Shown: positions 14,862 to 20,075 of the stretch, piece after piece
Layout of the letters: the number at the start of each line of letters is the position of its first letter
Numbering within the stretch: the stretch's first letter is position 1
Program-made: the position numbers and the translations under genes
Notes under the pieces: generated by a model
Seen by the model: the letters and a program-made list of their open reading frames with translations, nothing else
Told to the model about the DNA's origin: nothing
The model's database searches: none
Virus record (IMG/VR): IMGVR_UViG_3300032322_001803
Coordinates: 1-24,937 of that record
Strand: one strand, 5' to 3'
Length of the DNA stretch: 24,937 nt
Source of the DNA: a virus

Positions 14862-15143
14862 CTACTCCATTGTCAATGCTTGCCATGTATTAGACCAGTC
14901 TTGCTTTGACTTGTGTCTATTAAATTCCCTTGAAATTTCTCCACCCTCTAAGTATACTCCACCCCAAACACCCCACTCTTTGCCAGATATACCATTTGCA
15001 AAACATATTTTTTTAACGGGGCATTGCATACAAATTTTATCTATTCCATTACGAAGTTCTAATTTATCCTCATATTCTTCAAAATAAAGGTTTGTTTCAA
15101 GGCCTAAACAAGATGCCTCATCTTTCCATAAATGCTGTTTCAA
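14862..15143 (-). CDS. WhiB-family iron-sulfur transcription regulator
   Basis: 93 aa with all four cluster-binding cysteines: C12 in EASCLGL, then C38, C41 and C47 in ICMQCPVKKIC, followed by the invariant GVWGG (58-62). WhiB proteins hold a [4Fe-4S] cluster, bind the principal sigma factor and control transcription; they are confined to Actinobacteria and their phages, which is the best host clue here. Phage copies (WhiBTM4) can block host Wbl function. The basic C-terminal tail is short (NRHKSK), so DNA contact may be weak. Confidence 0.93.
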   Translation of the reverse strand: MKQHLWKDEASCLGLETNLYFEEYEDKLELRNGIDKICMQCPVKKICFANGISGKEWGVWGGVYLEGGEISREFNRHKSKQDWSNTWQALTME

Positions 15144-19048: not shown

Positions 19049-19222
19049 TTACTTTCTATTATCAGTAGAATAAAATCCTGGGGCATTAAACATGACTCCA
19101 GGAGATGACCATTGTCTTTGCATTATTACACCACAACATGAAGGCTCTCTGTCTTCACCAAACTCTCTTTTAAATTCAATGCTACAAGAACATGTTGTGC
19201 ACTTATAATCATATGTTGGCAT
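19049..19222 (-). CDS. FmdB-family zinc-ribbon protein, 57 aa
   Basis: Begins MPTYDYKCTTCSCSIEFKRE and continues with SCCGVIMQRQWSSPGVMF: the PxYxYxCxxC start and second cysteine pair are the FmdB/CxxC_CxxC_SSSS signature, a putative regulatory zinc ribbon. GGAG lies 5 bp before the ATG. The second CC pair is compressed compared with the usual CxxC. Confidence 0.85.
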   Translation of the reverse strand: MPTYDYKCTTCSCSIEFKREFGEDREPSCCGVIMQRQWSSPGVMFNAPGFYSTDNRK

Positions 19223-19260
19223 ATTTTCTCCAGTTTAATAATAATATATTAAGTATATCA

Positions 19261-19536
19261 TTAGGCTATGTTGTTTGTCAATCTGTTATGTGTTCTTATT
19301 CTGTGGCAATTAGCACAAACAACTTCACATTTTTCTATTTCTTTTTTAATTGCTTTCCAAGAAAAGCCATCATGAATCATTCTTGATATATTATATTTTT
19401 TATCTCTTATGTGATCAAAGTCTAATATAATATGATTATTAATTCCACAATCAAAACAACCAGAATCTTCTTTTATTTTAGCAAGACGAATTTTATACTC
19501 TTGCTTGTTATAATGGTCTAACTCTTTGTCAGTCAT
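19261..19536 (-). CDS. HNH endonuclease
   Basis: 91 aa with CFDCG (27-31), ILDFDHI (37-43; the catalytic DH) and CEVVCANCHRIRTHNR (70-85), a zinc-supported beta-beta-alpha-metal HNH fold. Stand-alone HNH proteins occur in phages as homing nucleases or as packaging cofactors. It directly follows a candidate structured RNA. TATAAT lies 8 bp before its ATG. Confidence 0.88.
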   Translation of the reverse strand: MTDKELDHYNKQEYKIRLAKIKEDSGCFDCGINNHIILDFDHIRDKKYNISRMIHDGFSWKAIKKEIEKCEVVCANCHRIRTHNRLTNNIA

Positions 19537-19560
19537 TAAACATAATTATATCAGTGTGTA

Positions 19561-19646
19561 TAAGCCCTACACAGGTATTCCAAGCACTTTAGCCAGGGAA
19601 TATATAGAAGGGTAACTACTCCATCCCAAGGTCCTGTGTAGGGACT
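19561..19646 (-). ncRNA. Candidate small structured RNA, about 84 nt
   Basis: Both ends pair: CCCTACACAGG (19565-19575) and CCTGTGTAGGG (19633-19643) make a perfect 11-bp stem, extended by two pairs past a bulge at 19644. Inside, TATTCC (19576-19581) pairs with GGAATA (19597-19602), with a GGC/GCT pairing in its loop. On the minus strand a perfect TATAAT (19658-19653) ends 6 bp before 19646, the first paired base, so an independent transcript is predicted to begin there. No protein frame spans it. It is not a tRNA. The strand is inferred from the promoter; a processed mRNA end is the alternative. Confidence 0.5.
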
Positions 19647-19652
19647 ATTTAT

Positions 19653-19658
19653 ATTATA
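19653..19658 (-). promoter_or_regulatory. -10 element of the candidate ncRNA
   Basis: Leftward TATAAT immediately after the stop codon of the heat-shock gene, followed by 6 bp and then the start of the paired RNA element. The expected -35 (CTAAGT, 19676-19681) is weak. Confidence 0.4.
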
Positions 19659-20075
19659 CTACTTGATCTTAATAGACTTAGGCTTCTTTTCTTCTGGAAC
19701 GATTCTATCAATACTGATTGTTAGCATACCGTCCTTAAGTTCAGCACCAGTTACTTCCATATATTCTCCAAGAGCAAATGTGCGTGTAAACTTACGAGCA
19801 GCAATTCCCTTATGAACAACTTCAGCATCTGTTACCTCTACAAGTTCTCCCTTAATAACAAGAGATCCATTATCAACAGAAACATCAATGTCATCTTTTG
19901 AAAATCCTGCCACTGCAAGAGATAATTTATATGTATCTTCATCTAGTTTAAGAAGATCATATGGAGGGTAAGATTGAGAGTTTGTCCTGTGTGCATTATT
20001 TAGTCTGGATAACTCTCTATTCCAGCCAATAAAAAAGGGATCATTGAATAGATCCATAGTTAGGTTTGTTACCAT
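19659..20075 (-). CDS. Small heat-shock protein (Hsp20 / alpha-crystallin)
   Basis: 138 aa. An N-terminal FNDPFFIGWNREL arm precedes the alpha-crystallin domain: YKLSLAVAGFSKDDIDVSVD, GSLVIKGEL, AARKFTRTFALGE (with the conserved R-x-F-x-R-x-F-x-L-G), and GMLTISIDRIVP, ending in a basic KPKSIKIK where the IxI-like anchor (IKI) sits. sHsps hold unfolding proteins; phage copies may protect assembly or delay lysis stress. AAGGGG precedes the ATG inside a hairpin. Confidence 0.92.
   Translation of the reverse strand: MVTNLTMDLFNDPFFIGWNRELSRLNNAHRTNSQSYPPYDLLKLDEDTYKLSLAVAGFSKDDIDVSVDNGSLVIKGELVEVTDAEVVHKGIAARKFTRTFALGEYMEVTGAELKDGMLTISIDRIVPEEKKPKSIKIK

Follow-up and report, generated by a model that had tools for sequence, protein, structure and literature searches.

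The window studied here (the whole stretch of 24,937 nucleotides of viral DNA that was analysed) carries on its minus strand, between a gene for an Hsp20 heat-shock protein (19659..20075; Pfam PF00011, E = 1.6e-19) and a gene for a 91-aa HNH endonuclease (19261..19536; PHROG 2255, E = 2.7e-21), a small structured RNA, designated RNA A (19562..19646, minus strand). This element of approximately 85 nt runs from 19646, the predicted +1, to 19562, its 3' end being approximate. A preliminary description of this DNA had proposed a new small RNA at this place, without seeing its link to the HNH gene.

Structure of RNA A

RNA A is closed by a terminal helix, P1, of 11 bp, formed by CCCUACACAGG (19633..19643, minus strand) as 5' strand and CCUGUGUAGGG (19565..19575, minus strand) as 3' strand, and an A-G/C-U extension carries this helix out to 19646, in agreement with the 11-13-bp terminal stem of the preliminary description. 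The further stem with a 15-nt loop reported there is present and conserved as the inner hairpin P2 (GAUGG - NNUAGUUAC loop - CCUUC; 19607..19625, minus strand), but its loop counts 9 nt and not 15. With 97-98% of cells paired, P2 is the best-conserved part of RNA A; in the window's own copy one of its pairs is a U-U mismatch. A third hairpin, P3 (AUUCC..GGC-UAAAGU-GCU..GGAAU; 19577..19601, minus strand), belongs to the predicted fold and varies between relatives. The predicted folding energy of the 86-nt RNA is -33.1 kcal/mol, compared to a mean of -23.6 for shuffled sequences (z = -3.06), and was matched by none of 200 shuffles, while the covariance model R1 matches 19562-19646 in the window's record with 80.1 bits (E = 2.6e-19).

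RNA A represents a family that is not in Rfam and was previously uncatalogued. A scan of 19561-19646 against the 4,227 families of Rfam 15 at gathering scores gave no match, and at E<=10 only two weak, meaningless matches were returned, which rules out a known Rfam family or ribozyme. A tRNA or tmRNA is ruled out as well, as had been expected, since neither ARAGORN nor RF00005 detects a cloverleaf there; the six tRNAs that ARAGORN and Rfam find in the window all lie elsewhere. No reading frame of at least 50 aa accounts for the region, again in line with the preliminary description, and no tandem repeats were found in 19200-19800.

Covariation in relatives

Relatives were collected from IMG/VR viral contigs in several ways. 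Among 80 viral loci fetched by the Hsp20 protein, about 30 hold RNA A, mostly just after Hsp20, and a DNA pattern derived from P2 brought in further relatives. In an alignment of 34 diverse copies (A1), 99.5% of the P1 cells are paired and all 11 pairs show two-sided changes; none of 500 shuffles was as good, and shifted P1 registers were only 30-52% paired. Because the choice of the A1 set had made use of P2 and P1, the count was also made on 40 distinct sequences from loci retrieved solely through the HNH protein (A4, aligned by fitting to the model), in which 100% of the P1 cells are paired with two-sided changes in 10 of the 11 pairs. Compensatory base changes in a helix are the criterion for a conserved structured non-coding RNA, and P1 meets it; in these relatives from viral metagenomes no stem was broken without compensation. 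The strand could be fixed as minus because G-U wobbles occur (11 in A1, approximately 30 in A4), whereas A-C mismatches are absent from P1 and P2.

P2 (GAUGG, loop NNUAGUUAC, CYAUY) hardly varies. It served as search pattern for one set, but loci retrieved independently of it show it as well, and the divergent relatives L378 and L381 retain the loop UAGUUAC. The helix P3 is kept to a lesser extent, with 76% of cells paired in A1 and 44% in A4. A single conserved P3 helix was considered and dropped, as a hexaloop, a GNRA-like tetraloop and a class 2 outer helix (such as CUACG/CGUGG) that encloses P2 do not align. Judged by these alignments, the relatives in IMG/VR prove the structured RNA and establish both its structure and its strand.

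Promoter and stand-alone character

In minus-strand order, Hsp20 ends with its stop codon at 19661-19659; TATAAT occupies 19658-19653, and a spacer of six bases (19652-19647) separates it from the predicted +1 at 19646. The 3' end of Hsp20 thus directly precedes the promoter of RNA A, with its -10 box (19653..19658, minus strand) right after the heat-shock stop codon, as described before. This box recurs before relatives: within the 20 nt before P1, a perfect TATAAT occurs in 40 of 72 distinct relatives and a 5-of-6 match in 31 of 72, compared to 1.6% and 13.6%, respectively, at random places, so that 71 of the 72 distinct copies have TATAAT or a one-off variant. It sets the start of RNA A 6-9 nt after the -10 box. 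The rule of a 6-bp spacing, which the preliminary description had borrowed from the leaderless genes of this virus, does put +1 at 19646 and fits some of those genes (starts 2038, 13076 minus and 21138 minus), but the HNH gene departs from it, since its own -10 box TATAAT (19545..19550, minus strand) lies 8 bp before the ATG of a leaderless start. A TATAAT-like box also precedes HNH in relatives. At starts 2038, 13076 (minus) and 21138 (minus), TATACT or TACAAT stands six bases before the ATG, consistent with leaderless transcripts.

Downstream of P1, the first 12 nt are U-rich (47% versus 31%), and no intrinsic terminator was found on the RNA A strand. At least nine relatives have another or a convergent gene after RNA A. 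In L112, L123, L125, L162 and L192 the gene that follows runs convergently and stops at P1; therefore RNA A is not merely a leader and can be regarded as a stand-alone RNA gene. A dedicated non-coding RNA with its own promoter, as proposed in the preliminary description, is supported by compensation in P1 in two separately gathered sets, a promoter box nearly everywhere, convergent next genes and the lack of an Rfam family; transcription itself is inferred.

Where RNA A occurs

The neighbours of RNA A vary, with Hsp20 upstream in many relatives and Dps-like, methylase-like and DUF5872-like proteins (names read by eye from the sequences) among the other downstream neighbours, and its genome position varies as well. 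Each of 28 RNA-positive records has one copy; three additional rows arise from reading the palindrome on the opposite strand. Many of the relative records are fragments. Two divergent queries gave no match to RNA A in isolated phages, and the exact core CTTAG(N)GATGGNNTAGTTACCYWTT had 0 matches across the bacterial chromosomes of 84,980 species, an exact-pattern search that can miss divergent copies, so that a host version has merely not been found.

The window also encodes a WhiB-like regulator (14862-15143, minus strand), which points to an actinobacterial host. As isolated phages of 'Ca. Nanopelagicales' encode WhiB too (PMC10202952), we infer that the host is likely a freshwater actinobacterium, and the carriers of RNA A are probably freshwater actinophages.

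Linkage of RNA A to the HNH gene

A search with the HNH protein alone gave 80 loci; in 78 of them RNA A lies approximately 25 nt upstream of HNH, and the remaining two contain a cut-off 3' part of RNA A (one at a contig end, one with only the 3' half). Conversely, HNH is found directly downstream in 116 of the 128 RNA A loci with room for it, and elsewhere in the same record in the other 12. Among 50 whole records, HNH is present in all 22 that are RNA-positive, 13 of which were picked without use of HNH, and in none of the 28 that are RNA-negative. This co-occurrence holds even with the genes 0.8-8.5 kb apart. A second subfamily of HNH proteins, with about 40% identity, lies 1-8.5 kb from RNA A and often faces it; of 28 loci obtained by searching with this subfamily alone, 19 contain RNA A, as do two more records, and in this search RNA A was absent from HNH relatives below 50% identity. 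HNH relatives at approximately 50% identity without RNA A occur in Streptomyces, Microbacterium and Arthrobacter phages as well as in L382-L386, and R1 had no match upstream of the HNH relatives in phages of these three genera. In L088 a different, longer HNH occupies the same place.

On a tree of the Hsp20 gene, the pair has been gained or lost at least 14 times and is placed nearly at random, without any RNA-only or HNH-only state; Hsp20 loci without the unit exist, and there both RNA A and HNH are absent. This tree represents one gene, and recombination may inflate the number of gains and losses. Adjacent genes can be lost together by linkage alone, hence only the non-adjacent cases support a functional bond. 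These amount to approximately 30 records of limited diversity, which may be one related phage group. Base pairing between the UAGUUAC loop and the beginning of the HNH mRNA was also considered; it fits ATGACTAAC starts, fails for ATGTCAGAG or ATGATAAGC, and was dropped by inspection.

The HNH protein

The HNH protein is confidently predicted to adopt a small alpha-beta fold (mean pLDDT 89.7). Its HNH motif is intact, with C27, C30, D41, H42, N76 and C77 invariant and H78 nearly so in 21 relatives, and the HNH ORFs beside RNA A are intact and under purifying selection (median pN/pS 0.07-0.23). No domain beyond the nuclease was found, neither RuvC nor a bridge helix, and a profile search against PDB sequences gave no match. 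Fold matches, among them Gme HNH, Cas9 HNH, TasH and T4 endonuclease VII, are weak and reflect HNH domains in general, and do not show kinship to RNA-guided systems. The sole match in defence libraries is a weak one to a PtuB-like HNH (E = 0.008).

Other structured elements in these phages

Other structured elements were encountered in the same phages. An H-type pseudoknot of approximately 30 nt, pseudoknot B (ACCTGAGCATGT...AAAACTGCTC), recurs at L007:3453, L023:3453, L031, L035 (downstream of Hsp20), L091, L162 and many more, in CHAP gene leaders, ahead of tRNAs and at the 3' terminus of other RNA elements. With pairing imposed as a constraint, a scan gave 65 matches versus 2 in reversed controls; in the 13 loci scanned with Rfam, several of which contain pseudoknot B, tRNAs were the only matches, and in loci with RNA A the pseudoknot is absent between HNH and CHAP. 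Downstream of Hsp20 and after the same TATAAT, L008, L016, L024, L053, L058, L064 and L077 have a structured-looking element (CTGCACCCC...GGGGAGTCGCAG and GTCGGGGGAGACAGCGACATTAAATACCTGGCAT) that directly precedes RNA A in L016 and L058. Further unlike elements occupy this slot in L018, L042, L072 and L069 (ACGGATGCTCCCC...; in L069 ACGTTCTTGTGTG...CACACAAG), and the slot looks as if small RNA genes are exchanged there.

In the Streptomyces phages Tribute, Samisti12 and NootNoot (L392:1178-1288, L396 and L397), a structured RNA precedes tRNA-Gly. The Tribute RNA (z = -4.33) is separated from the tRNA by an HNH gene; DNA like it was found in 63 Streptomyces phage records, without an Rfam match. 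The RNA before the HNH gene gp97 of Tribute was considered as a possible RNA A and rejected, being a different RNA.

Discussion

The reading we tentatively put forward, without holding it to be established and in the absence of any transcript, binding or activity data, is that the genes of RNA A and of the minimal HNH protein make up a two-gene unit whose products work together. RNA A would be transcribed from its own promoter, with an inferred start around 19646, P1 would lock its 5' and 3' ends together, and RNA A and the leaderless HNH gene would be gained, lost and moved as one unit. The HNH protein may then bind RNA A, probably at the P2 hairpin and the UAGUUAC loop, and RNA A would either restrain the nuclease or act as its cofactor; both the binding and the direction of control are inferred. 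Such a pairing is modelled, by analogy only, on phage RNA-protein modules such as AbiF-RCd22 and the type III toxin-antitoxin pairs.

The most serious competitor, which we consider nearly as plausible, holds that RNA A is an independent trans-acting sRNA directed at host or phage genes, next to which a selfish homing endonuclease, the HNH, has become established and carries RNA A along by co-conversion. Phages often have free-standing homing endonucleases of the HNH and GIY-YIG types; segB lies between tRNA genes of T-even phages, where flanking DNA is co-converted (PMC2988022), and SegB amplifies neighbouring anti-defence tRNA genes (PMC13096335). The HNH protein matches phage HNH endonuclease families, so that what is expected of a free-standing HNH homing endonuclease is partly met (intact HNH motif, PHROG 2255), and the distribution of the unit over the Hsp20 tree is patchy. 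Moreover, in Tribute a relative of this HNH is inserted between the structured RNA and tRNA-Gly, and relatives such as Samisti12 have the same RNA/tRNA-Gly arrangement without this HNH. Homing genes, however, usually leave empty, decayed sites, whereas RNA A without HNH was seen in none of the 22 records and 128 loci, the HNH reading frames next to it are intact, and the bond persists with the genes kilobases apart. Because no RNA A without HNH was found and the tie survives separation, we prefer a partnership of RNA A and HNH to homing, and only modestly so, because the separated cases may be one related phage group.

That RNA A acts in cis as a leader or attenuator of HNH, its structure controlling read-through from the RNA A promoter, would be compatible with the shared strand and the 25-nt gap in most loci, with the U-rich stretch after P1 and with RCd22, which acts so for abiF (PMC12373285). 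We nevertheless judge it unlikely, given the -10 box and leaderless start of the HNH gene itself, the relatives in which another or a convergent gene follows RNA A and the lack of a detectable intrinsic terminator on the RNA A strand. Least probable of all is a role as DNA, for example as a cruciform, as a palindrome bound by a protein, or as a site of replication or packaging, present once per genome: a long inverted repeat in single copy per record could suggest this, but the asymmetry between G-U and A-C mismatches in P1 and P2, the promoter in register and the varying genome position speak against it.

Should RNA A and HNH indeed work together, the unit could constitute a new kind of phage ribonucleoprotein, with a free-standing HNH nuclease of 90 aa that is inhibited, activated or directed by a structured RNA of 85 nt and serves in phage competition or against the host. 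To this extension we give less credence than to the partnership as such. In any case, these data add a well-supported, uncatalogued structured RNA family of abundant environmental, probably freshwater, phages. It is unusual for such an RNA to be tied this strictly to a minimal HNH nuclease; among RNAs that partner HNH proteins, the best known are the guides of large enzymes (IscB, Cas9). If RNA A binds the small HNH, the pair would be a compact nuclease under RNA control, in which the way phages restrain such enzymes could be tested; if it does not, the unit would be a clear example of an RNA gene whose every copy has been occupied by a homing nuclease.

Compared to known systems, RNA A resembles phi29 pRNA and ROOL/GOLLD in being a phage non-coding RNA gene with covarying helices, a comparison that otherwise rests on general knowledge, and differs from them in having no sequence or Rfam relation to them. 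With SegB and its tRNA genes the unit shares a nuclease gene that adjoins a non-coding RNA gene and a patchy presence among relatives, whereas its occupancy is complete, no RNA A without HNH having been found, and the nuclease family differs. HEARO, the omega RNA of IscB (RF02033), is likewise a structured RNA just upstream of an HNH-domain ORF, and mobile (PMC9755519). It is excluded here, given that RF02033 does not match and the 91-aa protein is HNH only, without RuvC or bridge helix; moreover, the start of RNA A 6-9 nt after the -10 box leaves no room for a 5' guide. From AbiF-RCd22 and the type III systems (ToxIN, CptIN, TenpIN) RNA A is set apart by its partner, an HNH protein instead of a ToxN/AbiQ-type or HEPN RNase, and by the own promoter of the neighbouring protein gene, and from the type III toxin-antitoxins also by its single copy without tandem repeats. 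It has in common with AbiF-RCd22 and the type III systems that a short structured RNA with its own promoter lies directly upstream of a small protein gene; these systems too are phage-carried, their RNA and protein act as a pair, and RCd22, an RNA of 88-115 nt before the abiF gene, binds and neutralises its protein (PMC12373285).
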